Source of the DNA: Cytidiella melzeri
Taxonomy: Eukaryota; Basidiomycota; Agaricomycetes; Polyporales; Irpicaceae
DNA: 64,000 nt
NCBI GenBank assembly: GCA_022592445.1
Contig: JABYQR010000099.1
Span: 61,408-125,407 of the forward strand
Direction of reading: 5' to 3'
In this document: piece after piece, positions 12,577-35,870 of the stretch
Layout: each line of letters begins with the position of its first letter
How positions within the stretch are numbered: position 1 is the first letter of the stretch
The notes under the pieces: generated by a model
What the model saw: the letters and a program-made list of their open reading frames with translations, nothing else
Told to the model about the DNA's origin: nothing
Databases searched by the model: none
Position numbers and translations under genes: made by a program

Positions 12577-12613
12577 TAGCAGCTCTGATAGAAGTGAGGC
12601 AGGGCAGACATCA

Positions 12614-13189: not shown

Positions 13190-13192
13190 TCA

Positions 13193-14664: not shown

Positions 14665-15286
14665 TATTACGATCCGATCCGATCACGTGATCGGCACCGG
14701 ACATCCGACATCCTTATCCTCGCACAGCCACATCCTCAACTCGTCACACGGTCCAACACCGATGTTCCTCCGATTTACCTTGTGCTCGCTATCACCGGTT
14801 TCATCAGTTGTAGATATCTCTTTGTACTTTTTCTCCGAATTTCCTCCGACTCCGATTATTCGCCTGATCTAATCCTCTCTTGTCTCGGACCATACACGCA
14901 TGCCTTATCAGACTTACAACTTCTAGTACTATATAACCAGACTCAATTGTACAGTAGAAGTTTAAGTTTGAATATTGAATAAGATCCCCATCCTATTCCT
15001 ACCTCTTCATTCAACTTCACTTGCTGAAGTCGTCTTACTCGTCGTTGCCCGACTTCTGTTCTGACACTCTTCCTCCGACTTCGTCTTCGCCGACCCCGAG
15101 TCTCCGAGGCCGAACCCTTGATCTTGCTAAGTCCAAATCCGAGTCACCGAGGATTCACGAGAGGCGCAACTTACTTAGTTGAAGCCGATTGACTCTTACA
15201 GCTCCCCCTGTCGCCTACTCCGATCGCCAACCCGATTAGCAGCATCGGACTTTGCGACAACGCCGATCCCGTATCAGTTCTTAACA
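14665..15286 (+). repeat. 5' LTR of E1, 622 bp
   Basis: It starts TATTACGATCC and ends TTCTTAACA. The termini are therefore TA..CA and not TG..CA, but the adjoining target duplications support these ends. A TATA-like tatataa at 14930-14936 is the likely promoter. Diagnostic bases (for example ctgacactc, cgtcgttg, ttcgtcttcgcc) match the 5' LTR of E2, not the 3' LTR of E1. Confidence 0.93.
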
Positions 15287-15326
15287 GCATATTCGAACTT
15301 CCATCTCGTATTCCTCTCACCATTTT

Positions 15327-16667
15327 ATGGCAACTCGCGTACAGACCAGATCCGAAACCCGCACCACAGCAGTAGTAACCGAATCAGCATCCGCACTCTC
15401 ACCCGCCGCTCGCCAAGCCGCAATTATGTCTAGAAACTCATCTCCTGCCCCCGCCGCCAGACGCCCCGAAGGATCCAAGAGCAAGGGGAAGGGAAAGGAC
15501 CCCAACCCCGATCCCGATGGTGAAGGTGGAGGTGGAGGAGGTGACGATGGCGATGGTGATGGTGGAGATGACAATAATGACGCCGAGGATGGCGGGAACC
15601 CGATTGAACAACTAACAGTGGCTATCACCAGAGCCCTGAGGAATAACTCGTCGGGAACCTCTGCCAAATTCCGCGTCCCCGATTCCTTCGACGGCTCCGA
15701 TCCCGCCAAACTCCGAAACTTCCTCACTCAGTGCGAAGTCTACTTCCGCTTGAGCCCCTCCAAGTTCAACACTGGTCAGAAGAAGGTCATGTTCGCCTTC
15801 TCCTATTTGACCGACGCCGCTCTCGAGTGGTTTGAATTGAAGTTCCTCCAGTACCAGCAATGGGAGGACACCCGTTTTAACCAATCAATTTCTCGCGCCC
15901 ACTCCCCGTACGCCGACTCCGAGGACTCGGCAAACGAGGTAGCCAAGACGTTAGGGACTAAGTTCTCGGAGTATGACTGGCTCAAGCACTGGACTGCCTT
16001 TGTTGCCGAGATCTGCACTCACTTCGGGCCTGCGGACGATGTCGGCGAAGCCGAGCAAAAGCTCTCCAACCTCCAGATGCCGTCCGACAAAAAATTATTC
16101 TGGTATAACCTTCGGTTCACTCGCTACGCTGTCCGAACGGGCTGGGACGACCGCACCCTCCGATTCCGATACTACGACGGCCTCCCCGAACGTCTGCAAG
16201 ATAACATCACGACAAACGGCAAGCCGAACTCCCTCTCGAGCCTTCAGCAGATGGCGCTGAAATGGGATCAACGATACTGGGAACGTCAGGGTGAAAGGAA
16301 AAAGACCGATCGGGAACCAAAACCCGCTAAGTCGACCTCTACCTCGATTACTACCACTACTACTACTGCTGCCCCCGTTGCTTCGGGTTCTAGGCAGCAT
16401 AATCGGAACTCTCGTCCTCCCGCTACCACTACCGTATCCACCTCAATCTCCACCGCAACGCCGAAGCCGAACCCGATCGCTAACCTCCTAGGCAGCGACG
16501 GTAAGCTCTCGGTTAACGAACGAGCTCGCCGCATCGCAAACAACCTCTGTTTGTTCTGTGGCCTACCCGGACATCGCGCAAGCGAGTGTTGCCGTGCAGG
16601 AAAGGCCCGAGCGGCCCAACTCGCATCGTCGACCGCTACCGCCGACTCCGGGTCGGGAAAAGTCTGA
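15327..16667 (+). CDS. gag: Gag polyprotein of E1
   Basis: The start is an ATG 40 bases after the 5' LTR, and the frame encodes 446 residues. The N-terminus is Ser/Arg/Pro rich and followed by an acidic Gly/Asp tract (about residues 60-90). Next comes a retrotransposon-gag capsid-like region (SFDGSDPAKLRNFLTQCEVY, and ALEWFE). A single CCHC zinc knuckle lies near the C-terminus (CLFCGLPGHRASEC). Gag forms the particle and binds RNA. The pol frame overlaps its end in the -1 frame, so pol is presumably made by frameshifting. E2 lacks this gene through an internal deletion. Confidence 0.93.
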   Translation: MATRVQTRSETRTTAVVTESASALSPAARQAAIMSRNSSPAPAARRPEGSKSKGKGKDPNPDPDGEGGGGGGDDGDGDGGDDNNDAEDGGNPIEQLTVAITRALRNNSSGTSAKFRVPDSFDGSDPAKLRNFLTQCEVYFRLSPSKFNTGQKKVMFAFSYLTDAALEWFELKFLQYQQWEDTRFNQSISRAHSPYADSEDSANEVAKTLGTKFSEYDWLKHWTAFVAEICTHFGPADDVGEAEQKLSNLQMPSDKKLFWYNLRFTRYAVRTGWDDRTLRFRYYDGLPERLQDNITTNGKPNSLSSLQQMALKWDQRYWERQGERKKTDREPKPAKSTSTSITTTTTTAAPVASGSRQHNRNSRPPATTTVSTSISTATPKPNPIANLLGSDGKLSVNERARRIANNLCLFCGLPGHRASECCRAGKARAAQLASSTATADSGSGKV

Positions 16668-19600
16668 GCAGCCCTCAGTCCTCCGCACAAGTCGAGGGCT
16701 GCGCTGATCCCGCTCGTGCACCTATGGAGGTATTTCTCAACGCGTCCAGTCTTTCCTCCGATGCTTTATATATTTCCGTATCCTGTCCCGATTTCCCACT
16801 TATGCCTCTTCATGCTCTAGTAGACAGCGGTTCTTCACATTGTTTTATGGACATTTCCACCGCGCAGAAGTTTGCTTTACCGATCCAATCCATTCCGCCG
16901 ATTCCGCTCCGATTGTTCGATGGACTTTCACGGTCTTTGATTCAATTCATGATAACACTCCCGATCCTCTTTCCGTCCGGAAAAACCTGTACGATTCCGT
17001 TCTACATCACAAATCTTGACAAATCTGCTTCTATCGTTCTAGGATACGACCGGCTCTCCCGCTACAACCCGTTGGTTGACTGGGCTAAGGGCCGTATTAC
17101 CTTCCAGAACTCTGAAGAATCTCCGACTAGGAGTCCCTCCGACGCCGATAGCTCCGATGAGCCCGACTCAGACACTCCCGCACCTCATGCTTCAGCTGTC
17201 CCACCAGTATCCTTTATAGGAGCTGCCACTTATATGCGTGCATGCAAACTGCCAGGCTCTGTCCAGATGCGACTTTCGTTGCGCGCAGCGCAAATACCCA
17301 CATCCGATCACAACCCCGACCTCTCAGCCCTCCCATCTGATTATCATGAATTCGCCGATGTGTTTTCCAACGACATCTTAGCCCCCCATCGTCCCTACAA
17401 CCTTAGGATCGAACTAGACAGCGATAAGCCGCTTCCGCCGAGTCCGATGTACTCGCTCTCCGCGGTCAAGCAGAAAGCCCTCCAGAATTCTTGGACAAAA
17501 ACGTCAATTCGGGTTTTATTTGCCAATCGACTTCTCCGCATGGTGCTCCGATTCTCTTCGTCAAGAAGAAGGACGGTACTCTCCGACTCTGCGTCGACTA
17601 TCGGGCACTCAACAAAATTACCAAGAAGGATCGCTACCCTTTGCCACTCATTTCCGATCTTCTTAACAGTCCAGGCAAGGCCCGGCTATACACCAAAATT
17701 GATCTCCGTCACGCCTACCACCTAGTCCGCATCGCCGAAGGCGATGAGTGGAAAACCACTTTCCGAACCTGATACGGCTCTTTCGAATGGCTAGTAATGC
17801 CGTTCGGACTTTCCAACGCACCGGCCGCTTTCCAACGCTTCATGAACGACATCTTCCAGGATCTCTTGGACGTCAATGTCATCGTTTACCTCGATGACAT
17901 TCTGGTCTTCTCCGACGACATCCAGTCTCACAAGAAGCACGTCAAGGAAGTGTTACGCCGACTCCGATTGCATGGGCTCTACGCCCGAGCCGATAAATGC
18001 GAATTCCACAGGGACACGGTAGAATATCTTGGGTTTATCCTTTTGCCAGAAGGCCTTCGTATGTCTTCCGACAAAGTCCAGACTATCCTCGACTGGCCAA
18101 CCCCTCGTAAGGTAAAGGACATCCAGTCCTTCCTCGGGTTCGCCAACTTCTATCGCCGATTCATTCCGAATTACTCCGATATTACCGTTCCACTTACCCG
18201 ACTCACTCGCAAAACAGCGACTTGGGCCTGGACCAAACAGTGCCAGACGGCTTTCGACTCCCTTAAACATTCCTTCACTACAGCTCCTGTTCTTGTGCAG
18301 TGGAATCCCGATACAACCATTATCGTGGAAACCAATGCCTCCGACTACGCCCTCGGCGCCATCCTCTCTATCGTCTCCGATGGAGAAATACACCCGGTTG
18401 CTTTTCACTCTCAACTTTCACCGCTCCCGAGTTGAATTACGACGTACATGACAAGGAACTCCTTGCTATTCATGAAGCCTTCCGGACTTGGCGCCATTAC
18501 CTCGAGGGAACGCCGACTCCGATCGACGTTGTCACCGATCACAAGAATCTGGAGTACTTCTCTACTACGAAACTCCTTACCCGACGACAGGCTCGTTGGT
18601 CCGAATTCCTATCCAGTTTTAATCTTGTTATCCGATTCCGACCCGGAAAGCTCGGTACTAAGCCCGATGCCTTGACTAGACGATGGGACATCTACCCTAA
18701 AGAGGGAGGTAGCGACTATGCTAGTGTCAACCCGCACAACTTCAAGCCTATCTTTTCCTCCGAACATCTCATCGCTTCTATACGCGCAACGGCCCTTATG
18801 GAACCGACTCTTCGCAGTGTCTATGTCTTCGACTCTGAAGAACTCTACCAGGATATCCTCCGATCACTCCCATCCAACACCTACGCTACACAGCTCCGAT
18901 CCAAGCCTCTTCCTCCGAGGTGGTCTGATGAGCCTAACGGCTTACTCTTACATGACGGCAAAATCTATGTCCCCGATGTTGGTGACCTCCGACTCCGAGT
19001 CTTACGTTACCGACATGACCATCTTCTATCCGGTCACTACGGAGTCAGCAAGACGTTAGCTCTTATCCGTCGGGAATTCTCCTGGCCCAAACTCCGAACC
19101 TTTGTTACCGATTACTGCAAGTCTTGTACGACTTGTAGACGATCTAAGGCCCCGAGACATAAGCCCTACGGAACGGTCCAACAGCTCCCGGTCCCGACTC
19201 GGCCCTGGGATTCGATATCCATGGACTTCATAGAACAACTCCCCGATTCCGATGGTTTCACTGCCATACTCGTCATTGTAGACCACCTCAGCAAGCAAGG
19301 CATATTCATTCCCACCTACGATACTATCGACTCTCCAGGCCTTGCTAAACTGTTCGTCCTTCACGTCTTCTCCAAGCACGGAGTTCCATCACACTGTACC
19401 TCCGATCGGGGTACCGAGTTTGTTTCGCGATTCTTCCGAGCCTTGGGACAGGCACTGGATATGAACCTACACTTCACTTCCGGTTACCATCCCGAAGCCG
19501 ATGGACAGACCGAACGGACGAACCAGACCCTGGAACAATACCTCCGAGCGTACTGCAACTACCAGCAAGACAACTGGTCGGGCTTGCTCCCGCTTGCCGA

Positions 19601-20300
19601 GTTTGCATTCAATAATGTTCCCAGTGCCACTACAGGCATATCTCCGTTCTTCGCCAATAAAGGCTATCACCCAAACCTCACCATCTACCCCGAACGCAGT
19701 CTCGCTTCCTCTCGCGCCCATGAACTCGCAGTAAACCTCGAGGACTTGCACGAACACCTGAAAGAAAATATGCGCAAAGCCCAACTCCGATACCAAGGTC
19801 CCGCCGATGCCGTTCGTACACCACCGCCAACCTGGGACATCGGTGATCGCGTTTTCGTTAAAGCCAAGTACTTCAATACCACTCGTCCGTCCAAGAAGCT
19901 TACCGAGAAATACTTCGGCCCATTCGAAATCATAGGACGGGTAGGACCGCAATCCTTTACCCTCCGACTTCCCGATGCTATGCGAGCTGTTCACCCCGTT
20001 TACCATGTTTCCATGCTCGAACCATACACTCCTAGCAAAATCCCGAATCGCGTTCCTTCCCCACCACCTCCAATTGAGATTGACGGCGAAATCGAGTATG
20101 AGATCGCAGAAGTCCTCGACTCGAAACTTGACCGCCGACGCCGAGCTTGTCCAATCCTCTACCTAGTTCGGTGGTCGGGTTACGAAGGAACCGATGAAGA
20201 AACATCTTGGGTACTCGCAACCGAACTTGACCGAGCCCCCGAAGCCGTTGCCGAGTTCCACTTGCGATACCCAAAGAAGCCTGGTCCTTTATCATTGTAA
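16586..20300 (+). pseudogene. pol: Pol polyprotein of E1: protease, RT, RNase H, integrase, chromodomain (frame broken)
   Basis: The aspartic protease has HALVDSGSSHCFMD. Reverse transcriptase follows, with [24 protein letters not shown] and the YLDD catalytic box, then RNase H, an H2C2 zinc region (CKSCTTCRRSK), an integrase core (SDRGTEFVSRFF, then GYHPEADGQTERTNQTLEQY) and a C-terminal chromodomain (EIEYEIAEVLDSK, LVRWSGYEGTDEETSW). Three defects are visible. A C is lost near 17485 (E2 has one more C there). A TGA lies at about 17770, and one base is lost near 18416. The last two are shared with E2. It overlaps gag in the -1 frame. Confidence 0.93.
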
Positions 20301-20427
20301 TTCATTTGTTCAACATATCCCATCTTATTTTTATCTCCGAATTTCTCCGAGTCCGATTCGCTCTCACACTTCAAGACAACAAGAAAAAGAAAACTATATT
20401 TTACAACAAATACAAAGAAAGTATTAT

Positions 20428-21541
20428 CTACTTCTTTGCCTTCTTCTTCCCCTCAACGACCGAGATCTCCGAGTCCGACCCATCCTCCTGCCCCATCCAC
20501 TCCTGCCAGAGGACAAAGTTCCTCCGAGTCACGTCGATTAACTCCCGGACAAGGTCCTGGAGTACCTCGACGTTACGGTTGAGCTCCCTGAGCTCGGACT
20601 CCGAATCGGTTGCCTCGGACGACTCAGGCTCATCGGCGTGCTCCACCAACTCCCGATGTTTCTTGCCCTTGTGCAAGAAGACCTTTGCCTCATACTTCTT
20701 CATCTTATTCGGCCGGCTACTCGCCTCGGACCCCTTCCTCTTCTTCGACGACGAGGCCTCGGAGTTCCCTGACGCCGCCTTCGCGATCGGGGGTGCGACG
20801 AGCCGATTCGCCGACCCCGATGGCGTCTCAGACAGCTGCCCCACCGTCTTCACCTTCACTCCACCCATCTCGCACTTCTGCTTGTCCTTGAAGCACTTCG
20901 CGCACGAGGACCCCCGACCGTTCACCTTCCACAGGCACTGGGCGCCGATCCTGGCGCACCAATCGCAGTCGTTTCCGACCGCCATGCCCTCTGGGATGGA
21001 GGCATCAACCATCTCCACATCACCCCCATCTTTCTCCTCGCCCGACAGGTCCGAGTCCGCGATGGTCGGCGCTGATTTTGCCTTTGCCTTTCCTTTCTGC
21101 TTCCCCAGGGTGACCGCCTTTGCGGCCTCCGTCACCGCGACCATAGGGTCGGCCCCCGATCCCGACACGACTGACGCTGCCTTCTGCTTGGGCTTAGCCT
21201 TCGACTTCCCCTTTGCTGCCTCTGCCACTTTCTTCGCCTCAGCCGCATCCCGAGCCTGCTGCTCGGCCAGCCGATCGGCCTTGGCCTGAGCAACCCTCTG
21301 GGCCTCCTTCTCCTTCTCCTTCTCCTTCTCCTCAGCCTCTCTCGCTATCTCTCACGCCATCTCCGCCTCCAGTTCGGCCTCCTCGTCCTGCAATCGCTGT
21401 TGCTCCGCGGCGAATCGCTGTTGAGCCTCCTCGCGTTGCCAACGAAGACGCTCGACTCTCTGGGCAGTAGTTTCTGACAACAGAAATGAAGTCAGCGAAT
21501 AAAGCCGATTCCGATTATGACTTACCAGCAGGGGCAGACAT
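20428..21541 (-). CDS. Antisense gene of E1: coiled-coil protein with Zn2Cys6-like cluster
   Basis: This gene runs opposite to gag-pol, between pol and the 3' LTR. A 16-nt first exon (MSAPA) starts at 21541; a 52-nt GT-AG intron (21474-21525) leads to an E/Q/R/A-rich coiled-coil segment (QRVERLRWQREEAQQRF) and a Lys/Ala-rich linker. The cysteine cluster DWCARIGAQC..SSCAKCFKDKQKC fits CX2CX6CX10CX2CX6C, the spacing of fungal Zn2Cys6 DNA-binding clusters. After it come a basic patch (KKRKGSEASSRPNKMKK) and a C-terminal helix. One in-frame TGA at 21352-21354, in a CGA-like context, interrupts it in both E1 and E2. Its role is unknown; DNA or nucleic-acid binding is inferred from the cluster alone. 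Confidence 0.7.
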
Positions 21542-21708
21542 TTCCGATAATGCGCAAGTTGTTTTGTTGGGTAGTGGGAGTTGGGGTGAAAAGTGTCAAA
21601 ATCCACATTGTCAGTCAGTCCTTGGTTTTTATACGCCTATCGCTATCTCCGATCATCAAGACGGGAGAAGCATTGCCCTCAGGGGTTCGGGCCTTAAGGG
21701 GGAGGTAC

Positions 21709-22330
21709 TATTACGATCCGATCCGATCACGTGATTGGCACCGGACATCCGACATCCTTATCCTCGCACAGCCACATCCTCAACTCGTCACACGGTCCAA
21801 CACCGATGTTCCTCCGATTTACCTTGTGCTCGCTATCACCGGTTTCATCAGTTGTAGATATCCCTTTGTACTTTTTCTCCGAATTTCCTCCGACTCCGAT
21901 TATTTGCCTGATCTAATCCTCTCTTGTCTCGGACCATACACGCATGCCTTATCGGACTTACAACTTCTAGTACTATATAACCAGACTCAATTGTACAGTA
22001 GAAGTTTAAGTTTGAATATTGAATAAGATCCCCATCCTATTCCTACCTCTTCATTCGACTTCACTTGCTGAAGTCGTCTTACTCGTTGTTGCCCGACTTC
22101 TGTTCTGAAACTCTTCCTCCGACTTTGTCTTCACCGACCCCGAGTCTCCGAGGCCGAACCCTTGATCTTGCTAAGTCCAAATCCGAGTCACCGAGGATTC
22201 ACGAGAGGCGCAACTTACTTAGTTGAAGCCGATTGACTCTTACAGCTCCCCCTGTCGCCTACTCCGATCACCGACCCGATTAGCAGCATCGGACTTTGCG
22301 ACAACGCCGATCCCGTATCAGTTCTTAACA
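21709..22330 (+). repeat. 3' LTR of E1, 622 bp
   Basis: It is preceded by a purine-rich tract (taagggggaggtac) and has the same ends as the 5' LTR. It differs from the 5' LTR at roughly a dozen sites, and most of those bases are shared with the 3' LTR of E2. Directly after it comes GAGCA and the second part of the Tnp2 gene. Confidence 0.93.
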
Positions 22331-23344
22331 GAGCACGACCTCGTGCACAACCACCACCTAGCCCTCCACCTCAGACAGTGCTTGTTACTTTTTGGGCCCG
22401 TTCATGGCTGGTGGGCTTTTCCTTTTGAGCGATACAATGGTCTTATTGCGAAGATCAAGACCAACAACGCAACCAGTGAGTCACGAGTTCGTAAGATTAA
22501 GACCATAACTAAATCTTTCTCAGGCAATATGCCTCTCACATTCCTTTGTTATTTCTGCATGGGCTCCAACCTACGTTGGAAGATGCACAGTCATTCTTGG
22601 CCTAAGGACGAATACTTTCAAGAAATGCTCGCGAACTTCCAAAATGTCTTTGGCGCAGCGTTCACCAACGGCCCAGGAAATGCGACGCAGGGGGGGGCAG
22701 ACGCTGTTGTTGGTAGCAAATCCAGAGCGGAGCCGATGACCCGCGACGTCTACGAAGCTCTTCGCTCGAAGCTAAACTCTACTTCGAATCTGTCATATGG
22801 GTCTGTGTATGAGGATAGCGACCTGGGATTCTCTTCGACACATCTGGCCCCCAATGCACATATGCTCACCGAAGCGGTGCACGATGGTCTTTCTTACGGC
22901 TGCAAAGATCGCCACAACTAGCGTAACTCGTTTGTCATGTTTCGCCGCAAACCGCATGAGAGCCCTACCGCCGGTCAAATCATCCAGATCTTTCGACACG
23001 CTCGTCACGATGGTGTGCACTCGATTGCTCAAGATTTCTGCGTAGTACATGCTTTCATGGATGGTGTGCACTCGATTGCTCAAGATTTCTGCGTAGTACA
23101 TGCTTTCATGGAACTCCAAACAAGAGCAAGTGATCCTTGGCGACTCTGGCCAGATATTCAGGCCCGGCTGTACTCTCATCGATTTGAAGCTTGCGTCAAC
23201 GCGGCACCGCGGGTGTATGTAGTACCTGTAGCTGAGCTCGTGTCTCACTGTGCCGCGTACATCTTTGTCCCCGAAGGCATTAGTGAAGAGTGCGTACTCG
23301 CTTTGTCATTGGACAAGGTTAGTGTGATTTATCGAGGTTGCTAA
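22331..23344 (+). pseudogene. 3' part of a Tnp2/DUF4218-type transposase gene, detached by inversion
   Basis: The frame enters directly from the retrotransposon edge with EHDLVHNHHLALHLRQCLLL and continues FGPVHGWWAFPFERYNG, the core of DUF4218 in Tnp2-type (CACTA/CMC) transposases. An intron starts at about 22472 (gtgagtcac..ctcag). A later part runs to the stop near 23344. A 51-bp in-frame tandem duplication lies at 23009-23110. The missing upstream part is on the minus strand at 35871-38794; its last codons (LGTSFE) join this segment in frame if one copy of GAGCA is removed. Confidence 0.88.
23009..23110 (+). repeat. 51-bp in-frame tandem duplication
   Basis: Two identical 51-bp copies begin at 23009 and 23060 within the Tnp2 3' part. 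They encode DGVHSIAQDFCVVHAFM twice. Identity of the copies indicates a recent event. Confidence 0.95.
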
Positions 23345-23597
23345 GACGAAAGCAACGCTGATAACTTGTTTTCGCAGTCCTGACTTGGTGACGACCTAAG
23401 TATGTTAGTCTAGGTATGTTAGTCCCCACTGCTTTTTACGTTGTATTAGCTTGTACTGTAGTAGCGATGAGTGAAGCAATCAGTCGTTCGAAGATCCTAC
23501 AGCTCGTTTTGAGCGATATGATATACAGTAAAGCTGAGATATACATTGGTCCTAACACTGCACTGAATATACAACGCGTCAAGTACACTCCCTACTA
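23345..23597. other. Spacer between convergent genes
   Basis: About 250 bp separate the end of the Tnp2 fragment from the end of the minus-strand companion gene. No feature is seen beyond a short repeated tatgttagtc near 23401-23422. Confidence 0.6.
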
Positions 23598-24827
23598 TCA
23601 AGCAGCATCCATCGCGTGCATCGCGAGATCAAAGTCAACGTCGTCAATGTCCAGATCACTAACCTGCCATGGCTTGAGCCTCACCACCCATTCCTGGTTA
23701 TAAAAGCATCGGGGGAGTCCGCGAGGAGCAACAGCTTCAAAGTCTGCGTCTTTTGCAGAGCGCACTCGAACTCGTGGAGGATTCCCAGCGCTGCGTCTGC
23801 GTCCAGAAGGACGAAGCCAGTGTTCCCGGTACTGTTGGTCCAGCTCTTCGAAGAACAGACGAAGTTGTTCGCTCTGCCAGGCTGGCGGGGTGTAATGATA
23901 GACCGGTGGATGTTGGGCACCCTCCCCTCCACTCTCATCTGCGCTCATGTGTACGGCCTCCATCTTAGCCAAGTAGAAGAGATGGTCCGCCAGCTCTGGG
24001 TGGCGTGTGCATGTCTTCAAACGCGAATTCAGAAGCTAAACCGCCTACCGTCAGAGGGATGGTAAGCTGCCAACAGACAGTATTACTCACCGTGGCCTTC
24101 CGAGAATTCACGGATTTTTTCTTGAGCTCAGCTTCATGCTGGCGTACGGTGTCAACACTATTGCAGCGCCGCCATCGCTCACGGGCATATTCCATGTGCG
24201 AGTCCAAGGTTTGACCGATATTCTCCTTGGTGAAATAATCGTCTGGGAGGGACAAATGGGCGTAGTGACCATTCTTCGATTTGGTCAGGATGTATGCCAC
24301 GAACACCCACCGAGCATGTCGATTAAATGAGCACTTCTTCCAGCCACGGCTGAGGCAGACACGAAACTGTTTTGTTGTGCACACCGGCGCGTCCATTGTT
24401 TCAGCTTTGAACTTGGCAAGCTCGTCGTCCATCATTCGAGGGAATTTCTTTGCCACCTGTGACCAAGATTTCCATCCAATGAGAGCGTAGAATTCATCCC
24501 TGATGAGCTTCTGCGGTGGATATGCATATTCGTAAGCTGGAAGGGAGCGATGTTATTGGAACTCACCAAGAAGCGATTCACTATTTCTTTCTCCTGCTCT
24601 CCTGATGGCTCCCCCTTGCTGATGTCTGCCTCGTCTTCGTCGTCGTCAGCCGCGGTGGCATGTCCCTTCCCCTTCCCTGTCTGCCTCGAGGTTCCCACTC
24701 CTCCAGATCCACTGGCCACGTCCCCTCCTGATTGCTCTTGCACCTGAGTATGACGTTTACCAGCGCGACGCTTTTCCACCACCGAGAAGGCTTTCTGGAC
24801 CCCCATCTGTATGCGCAGATTATCCAT
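23598..24827 (-). CDS. Companion gene of the Tnp2 transposon, function unknown
   Basis: The start is an ATG at 24827 (MDNLRIQMGVQKAF). Exon 1 (to 24567) encodes a basic N-terminus and a Ser/Gly/Asp/Glu-rich linker. A 30-nt gap with gtgagt..ccag leads to exon 2 (from 24536), with AYEYAYPPQKLIRDEFYALIGWKSW and VCLSRGWKKCSFNRHARWVFV. A second intron near 24040-24095 leads to exon 3, ending in DLDIDDVDFDLAMHAMDAA at 23598. It lies tail to tail with the Tnp2 3' part. CACTA-type elements often carry a second gene besides the Tnp2-like transposase, so it may be an accessory transposition protein; that is inference from position. No domain is recognised. Confidence 0.65.
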
Positions 24828-24881
24828 ATCCTTTCTGAATTAACCCACGTCAATGAGATAACGTCGTGCAGCTGTACATGT

Positions 24882-25060
24882 ACCTAACCTAACCTAACCT
24901 CACAAGGCGTAGTGGTTATCGCACCGGACCTTGCACCCCCTCCAGTGCAGGGCGTTCGGTTTGATCCCCACTCACGCCACACGCCGATATACTCGCTGGC
25001 TTCAAGCATTCCCTGCAACGTAAACCGTTACAGGTAATGCTTGTAGCAAGCATGTTTTTC
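24882..25060 (+). repeat. tRNA-like SINE candidate
   Basis: A short CCTAA-type run (24882-24900) precedes ggcgtagtggttatcgc, which resembles a tRNA A box. About 40 bp later ggtttgatccc fits a B box (24958-24968). The acceptor and T stems do not fold well, so this is not called as a tRNA gene. A degenerate tRNA-derived SINE head is the best reading. Confidence 0.4.
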
Positions 25061-25078
25061 TACCACCCCTTGCTCCTC

Positions 25079-25208
25079 CCCCGATAGCGCAATGTTTTCT
25101 TATCGGGAGAGTCTCACCGCCCACCATTATCCCGATAGCGTTCTAATTCACTATCGGGACAATCACCAACCTGCCTTTTCCCCGATAGCACACTATTTTC
25201 TTATCGGG
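25079..25208. repeat. Three spaced hairpins with a CCCGATAG/TATCGGG stem
   Basis: Stem-loops of about 28 bp lie at 25079-25107, 25131-25158 and 25181-25208, with a spacing of about 50 bp. Each has cccgatag on the left and a/tatcggg on the right with an AT-rich loop. The loops differ while the stems are kept. Confidence 0.75.
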
Positions 25209-25430
25209 CAACATGTCTCTCCCCTGCTACTCAGCTTCCAAATAGTGGTCACCTTGCTCATTGGGGATTTGGAGGTGGTACTCAAATTGTGCCTCTTTGG
25301 ACCTCAAATATAGACCTTCGCTTTTCAACACCCCTTGACCTTTATAAAACTGACTGTTGCTTTTTAAGGCCCTCCGGGCCCTCAAAAACAGAGGCTGAAC
25401 CTCAGGCTGAACCTTACCAGGGTAGTTCTT
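25209..25430. other. Stretch without a gene
   Basis: It contains a short palindrome ggccctccgggccc (about 25370-25383) and a small repeated gctgaacct. Nothing else is supported. Confidence 0.5.
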
Positions 25431-25875
25431 TAAGGTATAATTGACTATTTCACTCTATGTGATTTATTAAATTTGCTATCAATAACATAATCCCTTGTAA
25501 CCCTGCTCCTGCAGTTTACCAAATTTTATCTAGATTAACTTATATAATTCAACACCATTAAGAAGAAGACACATGTCATACAATCTTTATCTCCATGCTC
25601 CACCCCACAAACTTGTTTTAATTCTGTTCTCACAGCCATTGTTGCACTTCAAACAATCCAGCACAACCCCTCTTCTCTCATGAATGATTGTGTGCTCCAG
25701 TGAAGACAAACCACCAACTGACTAAACATTACTCATTGAAGAAGCTATTCCCAACAAAATCACTTGTTCAGGCTGCTACCAGCACCAAGTTTACTCACAA
25801 ATCTGGCTCAAAAAGTAATATTTCATTCAATCTTCAGGAATTGTGCTTGCCGCTTGCCGGCCTTGCTAACACTAG
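25431..25875 (+). mobile_element. Helitron-like copy, 3' part
   Basis: The interior matches 12150-12576 and ends with the GC stem, CTAG (25872-25875) and T. The 5' part is absent. No coding capacity. Confidence 0.7.
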
Positions 25876-25984
25876 TAGTTACACTCATAGGTGTGGTGTT
25901 GGTAGTGTGCGCATATGTTTGTGTGGCCTTGTTGGCACTAACGTGCTCATCTTCACCGCTTGCATGAGCGTGTTCATCTGCATT

Positions 25985-26643
25985 ACAGTTCCTGAAGAAT
26001 GAAGAACTGTTCCAGTGTGCTCCAGCGCATGGATGGTTTTTCAGATGTGACCCCCTTGTCCCCCAAAGCGTGGGAATTTGCTGTGAGAATACAGACAGTA
26101 GCAGTTACAATATCAAAGCAATGAGGACAGGTGATGGCATCACACTGGCCCTGTTATCAGCTCTTTATAGATATGTATCAGATCACTTTCAAAACCAAAA
26201 CGTACTTTTTGGCTTTTACAGACTGCATATGGATACAAATTTGTACATATTAAACATCATTGGATAACCATATCTTGGGCAACATCCTGTTACAAAAATC
26301 CTGTCAATTGAAGTGGAATTGTGCAAGTATAGCCAGTCTACTGAAAACAATCACTCAGACTCAGATTCAAACTCCACTCTTGCTGGCACATGATGTCAAA
26401 TTCTGGTCAGGTACATGTACAGCAGTCTACAGACATTGCTTGCACTGTGAGCAAGGAATACAATCAGAACACATGCCACATAAAGTATTGGGTCTGAGCA
26501 AGAGTTACCAGTACTTTGGAAGCTAACAAGACTTTTGCAACCCCTACATTCTTGTACAATGTAAAGGTGGATTGGTTGCTGCATCAGCAGTGACATGAAT
26601 AGTCCAACAGAGACCGGATTTCTCCAACATTGTCACAATTTTA
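25985..26643 (+). mobile_element. Non-autonomous Helitron-like copy, 5' part
   Basis: It starts with the conserved ttacagttcctgaag. Like the other copies it carries the coding-like relic around 26040-26100 and the segment ctgtgagcaaggaatacaatc. It is broken at 26644 by a minus-strand copy. Confidence 0.55.
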
Positions 26644-27290
26644 CTAGCGTTAGCAAGGCCGGCAAGCGGCAAGAACAATTCCTGAAGATTGAATAAATAT
26701 TACTTTTTGAGCCAGATGTAAGTAAACTTGGTGCTGGTAGCAGCCTGACCGAGTAAACTGGTTGGGAATAACTTCTTCAGTGAGTGATGTATAGTAACTT
26801 GGTGGTTTGTCCTCACTGGAGCACACAATTGTTCATGAAAGAAGAGGAACTATGCTGTATTGTTTGAAGTGCAACAATGGGTGTGAGTACAGAATTACAA
26901 CGAGTTTTTTGGAGAAGAGCATGGAGACAAAGACCGTTCGACACGCTTCTTCTCATTAATGGTGCTGAACCATGCTTAATAATCTAGTTAAAATTTGGTA
27001 AACTGCAGGAGCAGGGTTACAAGTGATTATGTGACTGACAGCAAATTGAATAAATTGTATAGCATGGAATAGACGTTTGATAGGCAAATTAATCCGGGAT
27101 CAAGTGATCTTACTACAATTAATAAGTTTGGTTGCGGGAAAAGGAGCCATATAATGATAAAGGTAGTCACCAATGGTAGCAAGGGGCTTCATCTATCTTG
27201 TCATTAATCTTGGGCAGTGTTCACTGCTGATTCTAGTGAATTGCTTAGTTCAGGAATGAACAGCTTGAAGGTGTCTCATTAGATCAATTG
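26644..27290 (-). mobile_element. Helitron-like copy, minus strand
   Basis: The complement of the terminal CTAG and GC stem lies at 26644-26672, and the interior matches 14147-14664 over several hundred bases. It runs into reversed minisatellite sequence at about 27290. Confidence 0.65.
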
Positions 27291-29700
27291 CTCAACCATG
27301 TTACATGTGTCCTGTTGATGTCTGAACTGTCTTGTTCACGTTCACATTGAAACTCCCACACGCTGTGTTCTGATTGTAACTCCTGCTCAGAGAGCAACTA
27401 GTGGGTGTGAAACATTGTGGACAATCAGATGCAGTGCTTGCTTCTGATGCAACCACATCTTGCTGATGTCTGAACTGCCTCACCCCCATGGAAACTGCTA
27501 CAGGCTATGTTGTGACTGTAACTCCTACCAAGGGTTGTAAAACTTGTTGAAGCAATTGGAAGCAGTGCCTGCTGCCAATGGAACTATGTGCTGTTGATGT
27601 CTGAACTGCCTCACCCCTATTGGAGCTGCTACAGCTGTAATTCCTGCTCAGAAAGTAGTGGTTGTGGAACTTTTTGGAGCAATTGAATGCAGCACTTGCT
27701 GCTGATGAAACCATGTCTAGCTGATGTCTGCACTGTCTCACCCCTATCAGAGCTGCTATAGGCTGTGTTCTGATTGTAACTCTTGCTTGGAGAGCAACTA
27801 ACAGTTATGACACTTTGTGGAATGATCAGATACAGTACTCACTGCTAATGCAGCCACAGATTTACATTGTCCAAGAATGTAGGGGTCGAGAATGTGTAGT
27901 TAGCTTCCAAAGTACTGGTAATTCTTGCTCAGAGCCAATGATGTTTGTGACATGTCTTCCGAATGTATTCCTTGTTCAGAGAGCAAGCAATGTTTGTAGT
28001 TGCTGTGCATGTACCTGACCAAAATTGGGCTGATAACAAGACCAGTGTGATGCCATCAGCTGTATTAATTGTTTTGTCATTGACACTGTTACAATTCCTG
28101 AAGAATGAAGAAGAATTGTTCCAGTGTGCTCCAGCACATTGATGTCTTTTCAGATGTGACCTTTTTGTCCCCCAAAGTGTGGGAACTTGATGGCAGAATA
28201 CAGAAAGTAACAGTGTCAATAAACAGACAATGAATACAGCTGATGGCATCACACTGGCCTTGTTATCAGCCCTTTATAACTTTGTATCAGATCACTTTTG
28301 CAATCAAAATGCACCTTTTAATTTCTACAAGCTGCATATGGGTACAAAGCTGTACATATAATACACCATTGGATAGTCCTATCTTGTGACAACATCCTGG
28401 TACAAACATCCTGTCAATTGAAGTGGAATTGAGCAAGTTATGGCCAGTCTACTGAAAAAGGTCATCCAGACTCAGATCCAAACTCCACTCCTGCTGGCAA
28501 ATGCTGTCAAATTATGGTCAGGCACATGTGCAGCAACCTACAGACATTGCTTGTTCTCTGAACAAGGAATACAATTAGAAGACATGCCACACATATTATT
28601 GGCTCTGAGCAAGCATTACCAGTATCTTAGAAGCTAACAAAAAAATTTCAACCCCTACATTCTTGGACAATGTAAATTTTGTGGCTGCATCAGCAGTGAG
28701 CACTGCATCTGATTGTTTCCTAAAGTTTGACAACCATTAGTTGCTCTCTAAGCAGGAGTTACAATCAGAACACAGCCTGTGGCAGTTCCAATGGGGGGTG
28801 AGGCAGTTCAGACATCAACAGGACGTGGTTGCATCAGCAGTAAGCACTGCATTTGATTGGTTCACAAGGTTTCACAGCCACTACTCTCTAAGCAGCAGTT
28901 ATATTCAGGACACAGTCTGTGGCAGTTCCAATAGGGGTGATGGTTGTGAAACTGTGTGGAAGGATCATAGGCAGTGCTCTATGCTGATGCAACCATGTCC
29001 TGTTGATGTCTGAGCTGCATCAGCCCCACTAGAGCTGCCACAGACTGTGTTCTGATTGTAACTCCTCTTTAGAGAGTAACTCATGGTTGTGAAACTTTGT
29101 GGAACAATCTGATGTAGTGCTTGCTGCCGATGCAACCATGTCCTGTTGATGTCTGAGCTGCATCACCCCTATTGAAACTGCCACAGGCTGTGTTCTGATT
29201 GTAACTACTGCTTGAAGAGCAACTAATAGTTGTGAAACTGTGTGGAAGAATCAAAGGCTGTGCTCTATGCTGATGTAACCATGCCCTGTTGATGTCTGAA
29301 CTGCCTCACGCCCATTGGAACTGCCACAGGCTGTGTTCTGATTGTAACTACTGCTTAAAGAGCAACTAATGGTTGTGAAACTGTGTGGAAGAATCAAGGG
29401 CAGCGCTCTATGCTGATGCAACCACATCCTGTTGATGTCTGAATTGCATCAGCCCCACTAGAACGGCCACAGACTGTGTTCTGATTGTAATTCCTCCTTA
29501 GAGAGCAACTCATGGTTGTGAAACTTTGTGGAACAATCTGATGCAGTGCCTGCTGCCGGTGCAACCATGTCCTCTTGATGTCCGAGCTGCATCACCACTA
29601 GTTGCTCTACAAGCAGGAGTTACAATCAGAACCCAGCCTGTGGCAGCTCCAATGGGGGTGAGGCAGTGCAAACATCAACAGGACACATGTAACATGTTTT
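27290..29700. repeat. Minisatellite arrays in both orientations with a Helitron-like relic between
   Basis: Reverse-oriented units fill 27290-27810 and about 28960-29590 (tgttgatgtctgaactg, ctgtgttctgattgtaactc). Forward units occur at 28690-28960 and 29590-29690. Between them, at 28088-28640, is a forward copy of the conserved 5' segment. Orientation flips inside the array suggest repeated rearrangement. No gene. Confidence 0.75.
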
Positions 29701-29965
29701 AGCATTTGATCTAATGAGACACCCTTAAGCCCTTCATTCTTGAAGCAAGTAATTTTCCAGAATCAGCAGTGAACACTGCACAAGACTAATGGCAATATAG
29801 ATGAAGCCCCCTTGCCACCATTGGTGACTACCTTCATCAATGTATGGCTCTTTTTCCCGCAACCAACCTTATCAATTGTAGTACAGTCACATTATCCCAG
29901 ATCAAGTTACCTATCAAAGGTGTACCCAATAGCAAATGCCTATAACACAGTCAATATTCATCACC
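29701..29965 (+). mobile_element. Helitron-like interior, cut by retrotransposon E2
   Basis: It matches 11820-12090 and 59600-59840. It stops at tcaatattcatcacc where E2 begins. The continuation (tcaccagatggc on this strand) is found reversed at 14653-14664, next to E1. Confidence 0.75.
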
Positions 29966-30587
29966 TGTTAAGAACTGATACGGGATTGGCGTTGTCGCAA
30001 AGTTCGATGCTGCTAATCGGGTCGGCGATCGGAGTAGGCGACAGGGGGAGCTGTAAGAGTCAATCGGCTTCAACTAAGTAAGTTGCGCCTCTCGTGAATC
30101 CTCGGTGACTCGGATTTGGACTTAGCAAGATCAAGGGTTCGGCCTCGGAGACTCGGGGTCGGTGAAGACAAAGTCGGAGGAAGAGTTTCAGAACAGAAGT
30201 CGGGCAACAACGAGTAAGACGACTTCAGCAAGTGAAGTCGAATGAAGAGGTAGGAATAGGATGGGGATCTTATTCAATATTCAAACTTAAACTTCTACTG
30301 TACAATTGAGTCTGGTTATATAGTACTAGAAGTTGTAAGTCCGATAAGGCATGCGTGTATGGTCCGAGACAAGAGAGGATTAGATCAGGCGAATAATCGG
30401 AGTCGGAGGAAATTCGGAGAAAAAGTACAAAGGGATATCTACAACTGATGAAACCGGTGATAGCGAGCACAAGGTAAATCGGAGGAACATCGGTGTTGGA
30501 CCGTGTGACGAGTTGAGGATGTGGCTGTGCGAGGATAAGGATGTCGGATGTCCGGTGCCAATCACGTGATCGGATCGGATCGTAATA
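29966..30587 (-). repeat. 3' LTR of E2, 622 bp
   Basis: On the minus strand it runs TATTACG to TTAACA. At the informative sites (ctgaaactc, cgttgttg, tttgtcttcacc, atccctttg, gtgattgg) it agrees with the 3' LTR of E1 and not with the 5' LTRs. Confidence 0.93.
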
Positions 30588-30754
30588 GTACCTCCCCCTT
30601 AAGGCCCGAACCCCTGAGGGCAATGCTTCTCCCGTCTTGATGATCGGAGATAGCGATAGGCGTATAAAAACCAAGGACTGACTGACAATGTGGATTTTGA
30701 CACTTTTCACCCCAACTCCCACTACCCAACAAAACAACTTGCGCATTATCGGAA

Positions 30755-31868
30755 ATGTCTGCCCCTGCTGGTAAGTCATAATCGGAATCGGCTTTATTCG
30801 CTGACTTCATTTCTGTTGTCAGAAACTACTGCCCAGAGAGTCGAGCGTCTTCGTTGGCAACGCGAGGAGGCTCAACAGCGATTCGCCGCGGAGCAACAGC
30901 GATTGCAGGACGAGGAGGCCGAACTGGAGGCGGAGATGGCGTGAGAGATAGCGAGAGAGGCTGAGGAGAAGGAGAAGGAGAAGGAGAAGGAGGCCCAGAG
31001 GGTTGCTCAGGCCAAGGCCGATCGGCTGGCCGAGCAGCAGGCTCGGGATGCGGCTGAGGCGAAGAAAGTGGCAGAGGCAGCAAAGGGGAAGTCGAAGGCT
31101 AAGCCCAAGCAGAAGGCAGCGTCAGTCGTGTCGGGATCGGGGGCCGACCCTATGGTCGCGGTGACGGAGGCCGCAAAGGCGGTCACCCTGGGGAAGCAGA
31201 AAGGAAAGGCAAAGGCAAAATCAGCGCCGACCATCGCGGACTCGGACCTGTCGGGCGAGGAGAAAGATGGGGGTGATGTGGAGATGGTTGATGCCTCCAT
31301 CCCAGAGGGCATGGCGGTTGGAAACGACTGCGATTGGTGCGCCAGGATCGGCGCCCAGTGCCTGTGGAAGGTGAACGGTCGGGGGTCCTCGTGCGCGAAG
31401 TGCTTCAAGGACAAGCAGAAGTGCGAGATGGGTGGAGTGAAGGTGAAGACGGTGGGGCAGCTGTCTGAGACGCCATCGGGGTCGGCGAATCGGCTCGTCG
31501 CACCCCCGATCGCGAAGGCGGCGTCAGGGAACTCCGAGGCCTCGTCGTCGAAGAAGAGGAAGGGGTCCGAGGCGAGTAGCCGGCCGAATAAGATGAAGAA
31601 GTATGAGGCAAAGGTCTTCTTGCACAAGGGCAAGAAACATCGGGAGTTGGTGGAGCACGCCGATGAGCCTGAGTCGTCCGAGGCAACCGATTCGGAGTCC
31701 GAGCTCAGGGAGCTCAACCGTAACGTCGAGGTACTCCAGGACCTTGTCCGGGAGTTAATCGACGTGACTCGGAGGAACTTTGTCCTCTGGCAGGAGTGGA
31801 TGGGGCAGGAGGATGGGTCGGACTCGGAGATCTCGGTCGTTGAGGGGAAGAAGAAGGCAAAGAAGTAG
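30755..31868 (+). CDS. Antisense gene of E2: coiled-coil protein with Zn2Cys6-like cluster
   Basis: This is the counterpart of the gene at 20428-21541. The 16-nt first exon starts at 30755, followed by the intron with gtaagtc and a long exon to 31868. The 266-residue downstream frame from 31068 is identical in translation to that of E1, including the CX2CX6CX10CX2CX6C cluster. The same in-frame TGA occurs at about 30942. It has no relation to gag-pol by sequence and may be an acquired host gene or a regulator of the element. Confidence 0.68.
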
Positions 31869-31995
31869 ATAATACTTTCTTTGTATTTGTTGTAAAATAT
31901 AGTTTTCTTTTTCTTGTTGTCTTGAAGTGTGAGAGCGAATCGGACTCGGAGAAATTCGGAGATAAAAATAAGATGGGATATGTTGAACAAATGAA

Positions 31996-34900
31996 TTACA
32001 ATGATAAAGGACCAGGCTTCTTTGGGTATCGCAAGTGGAACTCGGCAACGGCTTCGGGGGCTCGGTCAAGTTCGGTTGCGAGTACCCAAGATGTTTCTTC
32101 ATCGGTTCCTTCGTAACCCGACCACCGAACTAGGTAGAGGATTGGACAAGCTCGGCGTCGGCGGTCAAGTTTCGAGTCGAGGACTTCTGCGATCTCATAC
32201 TCGATTTCGCCGTCAATCTCAATTGGAGGTGGTGGGGAAGGAACGCGATTCGGGATTTTGCTAGGAGTGTATGGTTCGAGCATGGAAACATGGTAAACGG
32301 GGTGAACAGCTCGCATAGCATCGGGAAGTCGGAGGGTAAAGGATTGCGGTCCTACCCGTCCTATGATTTCGAATGGGCCGAAGTATTTCTCGGTAAGCTT
32401 CTTGGACGGACGAGTGGTATTGAAGTACTTGGCTTTAACGAAAACGCGATCACCGATGTCCCAGGTTGGCGGTGGTGTACGAACGGCATCGGCGGGACCT
32501 TGGTATCGGAGTTGGGCTTTGCGCATATTTTCTTTCAGGTGTTCGTGCAAGTCCTCGAGGTTTACTGCGAGTTCATGGGCGCGAGAGGAAGCGAGACTGC
32601 GTTCGGGGTAGATGGTGAGGTTTGGGTGATAGCCTTTATTGGCGAAGAACGGAGATATGCCTGTAGTGGCACTGGGAACATTATTGAATGCAAACTCGGC
32701 AAGCGGGAGCAAGCCCGACCAGTTGTCTTGCTGGTAGTTGCAGTACGCTCGGAGGTATTGTTCCAGGGTCTGGTTCGTCCGTTCGGTCTGTCCATCGGCT
32801 TCGGGATGGTAACCGGAAGTGAAGTGTAGGTTCATATCCAGTGCCTGTCCCAAGGCTCGGAAGAATCGCGAAACAAACTCGGTACCCCGATCGGAGGTAC
32901 AGTGTGATGGAACTCCGTGCTTGGAGAAGACGTGAAGGACGAACAGTTTAGCAAGGCCTGGAGAGTCGATAGTATCGTAGGTGGGAATGAATATGCCTTG
33001 CTTGCTGAGGTGGTCTACAATGACGAGTATGGCAGTGAAACCATCGGAATCGGGGAGTTGTTCTATGAAGTCCATGGATATCGAATCCCAGGGCCGAGTC
33101 GGGACCGGGAGCTGTTGGACCGTTCCGTAGGGCTTATGTCTCGGGGCCTTAGATCGTCTACAAGTCGTACAAGACTTGCAGTAATCGGTAACAAAGGTTC
33201 GGAGTTTGGGCCAGGAGAATTCCCGACGGATAAGAGCTAACGTCTTGCTGACTCCGTAGTGACCGGATAGAAGATGGTCATGTCGGTAACGTAAGACTCG
33301 GAGTCGGAGGTCACCAACATCGGGGACATAGATTTTGCCGTCATGTAAGAGTAAGCCGTTAGGCTCATCAGACCACCTCGGAGGAAGAGGCTTGGATCGG
33401 AGCTGTGTAGCGTAGGTGTTGGATGGGAGTGATCGGAGGATATCCTGGTAGAGTTCTTCAGAGTCGAAGACATAGACACTGCGAAGAGTCGGTTCCATAA
33501 GGGCCGTTGCGCGTATAGAAGCGATGAGATGTTCGGAGGAAAAGATAGGCTTGAAGTTGTGCGGGTTGACACTAGCATAGTCGCTACCTCCCTCTTTAGG
33601 GTAGATGTCCCATCGTCTAGTCAAGGCATCGGGCTTAGTACCGAGCTTTCCGGGTCGGAATCGGATAACAAGATTAAAACTGGATAGGAATTCGGACCAA
33701 CGAGCCTGTCGTCGGGTAAGGAGTTTCGTAGTAGAGAAGTACTCCAGATTCTTGTGATCGGTGACAACGTCGATCGGAGTCGGCGTTCCCTCGAGGTAAT
33801 GGCGCCAAGTCCGGAAGGCTTCATGAATAGCAAGGAGTTCCTTGTCATGTACGTCGTAATTCAACTCGGGAGCGGTGAAAGTTGAGAGTGAAAAGCAACC
33901 GGGTGTATTTCTCCATCGGAGACGATAGAGAGGATGGCGCCGAGGGCGTAGTCGGAGGCATTGGTTTCCACGATAATGGTTGTATCGGGATTCCACTGCA
34001 CAAGAACAGGAGCTGTAGTGAAGGAATGTTTAAGGGAGTCGAAAGCCGTCTGGCACTGTTTGGTCCAGGCCCAAGTCGCTGTTTTGCGAGTGAGTCGGGT
34101 AAGTGGAACGGTAATATCGGAGTAATTCGGAATGAATCGGCGATAGAAGTTGGCGAACCCGAGGAAGGACTGGATGTCCTTTACCTTACGAGGGGTTGGC
34201 CAGTCGAGGATAGTCTGGACTTTGTCGGAAGACATACGAAGGCCTTCTGGCAAAGGATAAACCCAAGATATTCTACCGTGTCCCTGTGGAATTCGCATTT
34301 ATCGGCTCGGGCGTAGAGCCCATGCAATCGGAGTCGGCGTAACACTTCCTTGACGTGCTTCTTGTGAGACTGGATGTCGTCGGAGAAGACCAGAATGTCA
34401 TCGAGGTAAACGATGACATTGACGTCCAAGAGATCCTGGAAGATGTCGTTCATGAAGCGTTGGAAAGCGGCCGGTGCGTTGGAAAGTCCGAACGGCATTA
34501 CTAGCCATTCGAAAGAGCCGTATCAGGTTCGGAAAGTGGTTTTCCACTCATCGCCTTCGGCGATGCGGACTAGGTGGTAGGCGTGACGGAGATCAATTTT
34601 GGTGTATAGCCGGGCCTTGCCCGGACTGTTAAGAAGATCGGAAATGAGTGGCAAAGGGTAGCGATCCTTCTTGGTAATTTTGTTGAGTGCCCGATAGTCG
34701 ACGCAGAGTCGGAGAGTACCGTCCTTCTTCTTGACGAAGAGAATCGGAGCACCATGCGGAGAAGTCGATTGGCAAATAAAACCCGAATTGACGTTTTCGT
34801 CCAAGAATTCTGGGAGGGCTTTCTGCTTGACCGCGGAGAGCGAGTACATCGGACTCGGCGGAAGCGGCTTATCGCTGTCTAGTTCGATCCTAAGGTCGTA

Positions 34901-35313
34901 GGGACGATGGGGGGCTAAGATGTCGTTGGAAAACACATCGGCGAATTCATGATAATCAGATGGGAGGGCTGAGAGGTCGGGGTTGTGATCGGATGTGGGT
35001 ATTTGCGCTGCGCGCAACGAAAGTCGCATCTGGACAGAGCCTGGCAGTTTGCATGCACGCATATAAGCGGCAGCTCCTATAAAGGATACTGGTGGGACAG
35101 CTGAAGCATGAGGTGCGGGAGTGTCTGAGTCGGGCTCATCGGAGCTATCGGCGTCGGAGGGACTCCTAGTCGGAGATTCTTCAGAGTTCTGGAAGGTAAT
35201 ACGGCCCTTAGCCCAGTCAACCAACGGGTTGTAGCGGGAGAGCCGGTCGTATCCTAGAACGATAGAAGCAGATTTGTCAAGATTTGTGATGTAGAACGGA
35301 ATCGTACAGGTTT
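31996..35313 (-). pseudogene. pol: Pol of E2: partial protease, RT, RNase H, integrase, chromodomain
   Basis: On the minus strand this matches E1 pol from within the protease (TCTIPFYITNLDKSASIVLG) to the chromodomain end at 31996. The one-base loss seen in E1 near 17485 is absent here, so the frame runs [16 protein letters not shown]. The TGA after TTFRT and the base loss before TFTAPELNYD are shared with E1. There is also a frame change near 34250, where LPEGLRMSS should follow LGFI. The DSG protease motif is gone. Confidence 0.92.
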
Positions 35314-35870
35314 GGAGTAGGCGACAGGGGGAGCTGTAAGAGTCAATCGGCTTCAACTAAGTAAGTTGCGCCTCTCGTGAATCCTCGGTGACTCGGATTT
35401 GGACTTAGCAAGATCAAGGGTTCGGCCTCGGAGACTCGGGGTCGGCGAAGACGAAGTCGGAGGAAGAGTGTCAGAACAGAAGTCGGGCAACGACGAGTAA
35501 GACGACTTCAGCAAGTGAAGTTGAATGAAGAGGTAGGAATAGGATGGGGATCTTATTCAATATTCAAACTTAAACTTCTACTGTACAATTGAGTCTGGTT
35601 ATATAGTACTAGAAGTTGTAAGTCCGATAAGGCATGCGTGTATGGTCCGAGACAAGAGAGGATTAGATCAGGCGAATAATTGGAGTCGGAGGAAATTCGG
35701 AGAAAAAGTACAAAGAGATATCTACAACTGATGAAACCGGTGATAGCGAGCACAAGGTAAATCGGAGGAACATCGGTGTTGGACCGTGTGACGAGTTGAG
35801 GATGTGGCTGTGCGAGGATAAGGATGTCGGATGTCCGGTGCCGATCATGTGATCGGATCGGATCGTAATA
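35314..35870 (-). repeat. 5' LTR of E2, truncated (557 bp)
   Basis: On the minus strand it starts TATTACG at 35870 and stops at cgcctactcc, where it fuses to protease sequence. It shares the 5'-type bases of E1 (ctgacactc, cgtcgttg, ttcgtcttcgcc, atctctttg). Confidence 0.9.

Follow-up and report, generated by a model that had tools for sequence, protein, structure and literature searches.

The stretch of DNA analysed here, termed the window, comprises 64,000 nucleotides of the polypore Cytidiella melzeri (Basidiomycota; Polyporales; Irpicaceae; GenBank assembly GCA_022592445.1, contig JABYQR010000099.1, forward-strand positions 61,408 to 125,407) and carries two facing copies, A and B, of one long terminal repeat (LTR) retrotransposon. 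The window is part of a contig referred to as C731, in an assembly of 49.7 Mb and 731 contigs. Copy A (14665-22331, plus strand) consists of a 5′ LTR (A5; 14665..15287) and a 3′ LTR (A3; 21709..22331), each of 623 bp, and an internal region (15288..21708), all on the plus strand. Copy B (29965-35870, minus strand) comprises, on the minus strand, a 3′ LTR (B3; 29965..30587) and a 5′ LTR (B5; 35314..35870) of which 557 of 623 bp are left; at the deletion junction (35313..35314, minus strand), element positions 558-2318 are gone, i.e., 1761 bp consisting of the 66 terminal bp of the 5′ LTR and adjacent internal DNA. An initial annotation, made from the sequence alone, had placed both copies correctly. 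The internal region of copy A encodes Ty3 gag-like, RNase H, integrase, and chromodomain sequences, with Pfam matches above the cut-off to PF19259, PF17917, PF17921, PF24626, and PF00385 and slightly below it to PF00665, and copy A matches the Ty3 Gag-Pol entry 7q5b with an E value of 1.6e-66. Direct LTRs, a short target duplication, a Ty3-type capsid, RNase H, integrase, and a chromodomain identify the copies as a Ty3/gypsy LTR retrotransposon of the chromovirus type. Over 5350 bp, A and B share 99.8% identity, whereas other near-complete family copies are approximately 95-98% identical to A. Near the 3′ end of both elements lies an identical antisense open reading frame (ORF) of 266 aa (20428-21228, minus strand; 31068-31868, plus strand), for which no Pfam match was obtained with the one of the two copies that was searched.

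The short duplications that flank the two elements are exchanged between them. Copy A is preceded by GTGA (14661..14664, plus strand) and followed by AGCA (22332..22335, plus strand), whereas the partner of the former lies beside the 3′ LTR of B (29961..29964, minus strand; TCAC on the plus strand) and that of the latter beside the 5′ LTR of B (35871..35874, minus strand; TGCT on the plus strand). In element orientation, A thus reads GTGA-element-AGCA and B reads AGCA-element-GTGA. Duplications of 4 bp are usual in the family, being found at copies C480, C476, C33, and C222 (named after their contigs) and at the single LTRs C61a and C61b; C282 has one if its end is shifted by one base, C27 has one with one mismatch, C98 has TTTC, and C472 and C730 have none. 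The GTGA site is hosted by a dispersed repeat array, partly of 143-bp units (25442..29964, plus strand), which in the ancestral order would continue from the array at 9038-14664. The left flank of B joined to the reverse complement of the left flank of A corresponds to sequence that is uninterrupted in four window paralogs of the host repeat (81-87% identity), in which the target position is single and unduplicated and its four bases are 1-2 off TCAC. Because the GTGA flanks are continuous in these paralogs, the repeat unit hosting the GTGA-site element was formerly whole on both sides of it. Compared with that arrangement, the stretch separating A from B has been inverted, whether in the chromosome itself or only in the assembly. 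A contiguous version of the present flank pair of A, of that of B, or of the AGCA join occurs nowhere in the window.

The LTRs themselves group by position and not by copy. Among the four LTRs of A and B, 11 positions vary within the 557 bp common to all four, and seven of them (LTR positions 28, 155, 349, 379, 401, 418, and 425) separate both 5′ LTRs from both 3′ LTRs; no site separates A from B, none pairs A5 with B3 and A3 with B5, and the remaining four are single-copy changes. If the three splits are equally likely, seven of seven sites on one named split have a P of 0.0005. Divergence within a copy (11/623 in A, 9/557 in B) exceeds that between copies (3/557 for A5-B5, 4/623 for A3-B3). 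Both patterns had been claimed in the initial annotation, which quoted several of the base pairs concerned and proposed a tree of the four LTRs as a check. The tree was extended to the family by gathering 42 LTRs, a subset of those in the genome (the LTR search alone scored 40 of 501 first-look candidates), of which the 40 longer than 450 bp were used for maximum-likelihood analysis; a 155-bp 5′ piece from C102 and the LTR of C167 (232 bp) were omitted. The LTRs of C98, C390, C350, and C421 and the 3′ LTR of C730, which belong to a second subfamily, are diverged, or are partial, were fetched and kept outside the 42-LTR set. A5 and B5 group with support of 99/92, A3 and B3 group with the LTR of a third copy on contig C349 with 99/93, and these five LTRs form one clade with 92/84.

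The states common in the 42-LTR set at the seven sites are, in order, C, C, G, C, A, C, and G, and the changes can therefore be polarized: 155T, 349A, and 401C are new on the 5′ side and constitute the 5′ haplotype of A5 and B5, and 28T, 379T, 418T, and 425A are new on the 3′ side and constitute the 3′ haplotype of A3 and B3. Five of the seven sites lie in a CpG context and two outside it; six are also variable elsewhere in the 42-LTR set, site 425 varies in C502, and 401C is also present in C222, C390, and C502. No single site is conclusive, because all seven vary in other family copies. In combination, a 36-mer with the 3′-type bases at sites 401, 418, and 425 is found in the assembly exactly three times (A3, B3, and C349), and the 5′-type 36-mer occurs exactly in A5, B5, and both LTRs of C222, which lacks the 5′ bases at 155 and 349. 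A family-wide asymmetry between 5′ and 3′ LTRs, sought among the eight further copies for which the 40-LTR tree contains both LTRs, is not general: the LTRs of four copies group within the copy (C480, C222, C33, and C374), three copies are unresolved (C476 and C27, both within small clades, and C472), and those of C282 do not group, its 5′ LTR joining that of C730 at 97/74. The pattern of A and B is therefore no general property of the family.

In reverse transcription, one LTR template is copied into both ends of the new element, and the canonical genomic RNA of retroelements lacks the 5′ U3. Because reverse transcription equalizes the LTRs and the RNA lacks the 5′ U3, shared 5′ and 3′ haplotypes indicate that an integrated element was copied as DNA, and the sequence evidence supports the descent of A and B as DNA from one integrated copy. 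The initial annotation had likewise suggested that one old integrated element was copied as DNA, and this part of it is borne out by the seven sites, the within- and between-copy divergence, and the tree. The LTR grouping is independent of the inversion, because the un-inverted elements, A5-B3 and B5-A3, would keep the same 5′ and 3′ haplotypes.

The copy on C349 includes the AGCA flank together with the 3′ portion of the element and continues for 3.1 kb beyond that flank; it is colinear with window positions 19436-25441 at 99.77% identity over 6006 bp. Within the assembly, the 500 bases that follow A on its right are confined to C731 and C349, and the flank to the right of B occurs once. The match between C731 and C349 and those to eight other loci, chosen for matches that stop at this point, end near 25441, and this common end marks position 25441 as the end of a larger repeat, here termed TE-X, whose end segment (22332..25441, plus strand) adjoins the AGCA-site element. 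Outside TE-X, C731 continues into the dispersed array, of which two paralogs cross the corresponding position, and C349 has a different repeat that is uninterrupted in all five paralogs fetched. Since the outer neighbours differ, TE-X and the element within it apparently occupy two places, and the element was probably duplicated as a passenger within TE-X, as judged from these flanks. The C349 contig ends inside the element, so that the 5′ half of this copy lies outside the contig, and a third 5′-type LTR sought for it in the assembly was not found. C349 was also considered as the other haplotype of the same locus; this is possible, as an uncollapsed haplotype, but is disfavoured by the outer repeat being uninterrupted in all five paralogs, and a second location is preferred. 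Matches to the second subunit of RNA polymerase lie on three contigs, which suggests an assembly of haploid size.

An ORF with a tnp2 transposase domain (PF02992; 35663..37888, minus strand) lies on the far side of the AGCA site from the segment 22332-25441 and probably belongs to TE-X. The terminus of TE-X reads ...GGTATAA (window 25441; C349:31897/31898) and seems to be placed between an A and a T in each of two distinct host repeats. The opposite end of TE-X was sought without success; the terminal 24 bases occur once in the window.

Divergence between A and B is patchy along the element. Within element positions 3010-7240 (17674..21904 in A, plus strand), only one substitution occurs in 4230 positions, vs. 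11 in 1675 outside this stretch. The ratio of the middle to the outer rate is 0.04 for A and B but 0.54-0.98 in 20 other family pairs, 10 of which involve A or B. When the 12 changes are placed randomly, essentially on CpG positions, an equally long stretch with at most one change arises with a scan P of 0.0001, and a binomial calculation with the pooled family ratio yields 0.00013. Furthermore, two bases inside the middle stretch, 5947T and 6409T, are common to A and B and absent from C349 and five outgroup copies, and 5186C, which adjoins a gap in C349, is a possible third new base shared by A and B. The 3′ LTRs of the three copies are roughly equidistant, with 4 (A-B), 3 (A-C349), and 3 (B-C349) differences in 623 positions. 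The patchiness fits a conversion or crossover tract, or the collapse of two interiors by the assembler. Regarding the nature of the changes, the substitutions between A and B (element positions 23 to 7645) are 11 G-to-A vs. one C-to-T on the element plus strand (P 0.006), nearly all at CpG, whereas older shared changes lack such a bias (Fisher P 0.004); other copies show no consistent bias, and the test was chosen post hoc.

We consider the following scenario the most probable, at roughly two chances in three for the whole. A Ty3-type element inserted once in TE-X, creating the AGCA 4-bp duplication, and its two LTRs then diverged through several mutations, as the LTR polarity shows. TE-X with the element inside appears to have been duplicated to a second place, now C349, barring an assembly chimera or an uncollapsed haplotype. 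A second element, approximately 7.6 kb away and inverted at the GTGA site of the neighbouring array, would have acquired the same sequence and both LTR haplotypes. This GTGA-site element has an integrase-type duplication and lacks the TE-X flank, so that the simplest account is an ordinary family insertion that was later overwritten, most likely through gene conversion, i.e., homologous repair of a double-strand break templated by its inverted neighbour. Finally, a crossover in the near-identical middle would have turned round the DNA lying between the exchange points in A and B, so that the target duplications changed places, unless the orientation reflects the assembler's choice.

Ectopic exchange in the A/B family is seen independently in C730 (114866-121396), which combines a 624-bp A-type 5′ LTR with a 698-bp 3′ LTR of the second subfamily. 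Its interior and 3′ flank match those of C98 (98% over 7.5 kb), its 5′ flank does not, and it has no counterpart of the TTTC duplication found at C98; judging from this mixed structure, C730 is probably the product of an ectopic crossover. The second subfamily also contributes two inverted LTRs at C390:50736-52289, whose 3′ ends face each other approximately 170 bp apart.

Several observations weigh against the scenario of conversion and crossover. The conversion would need to span at least element positions 155 to 7469, and no remnant of the overwritten element was seen; it could persist only in the outermost 154 bp of A5 and 198 bp of B3, which are non-discriminating. For the AGCA site, the window offers no paralog without an insertion. 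The limits of the middle stretch were set after inspection of the data, and the changes between A and C349 are likewise somewhat over-represented in the LTR relative to the middle (3 of 7, P 0.15, non-significant). Moreover, for 13 of the 14 one-ended copies checked, all but C79, the contig breaks off within the element, at a distance of 1760-4481 bp from its known end; the check covered one-ended copies apart from the partial copies C167, C421, C284, C350, C556, C643, and C396. The identity of the middle stretch and the phase of A and B could thus originate from the assembler.

This last point underlies the explanation that best survives beside conversion and crossover, which we regard as unlikely but serious, namely an assembly artefact in which the GTGA-site and AGCA-site elements are real, their interiors are collapsed or mis-joined, and the inversion is unreal. 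In its strong form, the GTGA-site element would be an ordinary family member whose interior was filled from TE-X copies. Since contigs end inside the element, the joining of A5 with A3 and of B5 with B3 is not secured and neither, in consequence, is the inversion; the un-inverted arrangement would give both elements matching target duplications. The missing 5′ half of the C349 copy and its missing 5′-type LTR are likewise in keeping with such an artefact, and positions 1-154 of A5 are identical to the LTRs C291_3 and C73_3, which makes a wrong join possible. However, changes private to A and others private to B occur in both LTRs as well as in the first 3 kb, and the copies are therefore not one consensus used twice. 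Contigs extend 1.8-4.5 kb into the element from the flank, whereas anchoring of the nearest diagnostic sites needs 155-198 bp, and the flank-anchored LTR sequence is probably sound.

Template-switching, copy-and-paste repair or a segmental duplication could also have made the inverted copy, and as DNA-level copying it would retain both LTR haplotypes; nevertheless, it is improbable, because the copy stops exactly at the LTR ends and is bordered by an integrase-type 4-bp duplication, at a site where the four paralogs are uninterrupted, and a segmental duplication would be expected to bring flanking DNA along, as in the C349 copy.

The initial annotation favoured intramolecular replicative (Shapiro-type) transposition, in which the integrase would connect the termini of an already integrated element with a further target site on the same chromosome and leave inverted copies bounding an inversion. 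This accounts for the LTR grouping and the swapped 4-bp duplications in one step, but conversion with crossover explains both features too, and the swapped duplications arise equally from a crossover between inverted elements or from a flip by the assembler, so that replicative transposition is not needed. LTR integrases are known to act on free cDNA ends rather than on integrated copies, which counts against it, and we know of no precedent for an integrase acting on the ends of an integrated LTR copy. Conversion tracts over part of the elements had been named in the initial annotation itself as a sign against its proposal, and such a sign is present, in that the middle 4.2 kb is nearly free of differences and the outer parts are not. 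Without later conversion, neither the patchy divergence nor the middle changes of A and B that are absent from C349 are predicted, although later conversion or assembly collapse in the middle could yield the patchiness. We therefore consider Shapiro-type transposition highly improbable, and the specific version in which an LTR integrase used the ends of an integrated copy on a new target, as DNA-to-DNA replicative transposition later blurred by conversion of the middle, more doubtful still.

Two independent reverse-transcribed insertions with parallel LTR changes at hypermutable CpG sites are the least likely: the CpG context of five sites and the variability of six in other copies would allow recurrent change, but all seven agree, two of them outside CpG, the 3′-type 36-mer occurs at no further place in the assembly, the five LTRs form one clade, and A and B are far more alike than other near-complete copies are to A.

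Two other inverted arrangements were observed in the window. In the array to the left of A, an inverted repeat of 277 bp, reported as 100% complementary, has a 24-nt spacer (12613-12889 / 12914-13190) and is either a recent hairpin element or an assembly artefact. A second inverted pair (480-1003 / 7795-8314) is 97-98% complementary, lies approximately 7 kb apart, and flanks a Ty3 pol ORF (3649-4893); one place in C349 (29002-29731) matches both arms.

Rearrangements mediated by proviruses were reportedly described by Hughes and Coffin in 2001. DNA-level amplification of integrated copies has close parallels elsewhere. The human HERV-K proviruses K111 and K222 spread in pericentromeres through recombination and gene conversion (PMC4425911). 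As in the present elements, their DNA-amplified copies form separate 5′ and 3′ LTR clades and spread as DNA inside repeats, and crossover is inferred there from mixed flanks and target duplications (PMC4425911); by contrast, K111 and K222 involve many copies on many chromosomes, whereas here there is one inverted pair and one passenger copy. For orthologous proviruses, 5′ LTRs are expected to cluster with 5′ LTRs and 3′ LTRs with 3′ LTRs after inheritance or duplication of an integrated copy (Johnson and Coffin, as discussed in PMC8781664; the same expectation appears in PMC3228705), and violations mark conversion or recombination (PMC8781664). Such proviruses are mainly compared between species, whereas A and B reside within one genome.

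Exchange between inverted repeats is likewise documented. The arms of the human Y palindrome P6 are described as inverted repeats more than 99.9% alike, with multi-kilobase conversion tracts and rare inversions (PMC3723533). The A/B pair may be likened to P6, although the arms of P6 are those of a Y palindrome and not one inserted mobile element each (PMC3723533). In yeast, conversion between non-allelic Ty1 elements occurs with or without crossover, and an inversion is the expected outcome when inverted elements on the same arm cross over (PMC9879454); however, the breaks in that study are Cas9-induced, and it reports no same-arm inverted-repeat recombination in the four isolates of one strain examined in detail. 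Two further reports document non-allelic LTR conversion (PMC4921805; PMC7251063), with tracts in the former much shorter than here. Separate 5′ and 3′ LTR clades in DNA-amplified proviruses are thus already published for K111/K222, and no priority is claimed for the inverted pair.

The A/B pair looks like ordinary recombination biology and not a new kind of transposition, and swapped target duplications alone are poor evidence for a new transposition mechanism. LTR divergence would misdate the GTGA-site element, whose LTRs are almost 2% diverged, mostly by inheritance from another insertion. In this fungus, one element has apparently multiplied in two ways, carried along inside a larger repeat and through exchange with a neighbour in inverted orientation.

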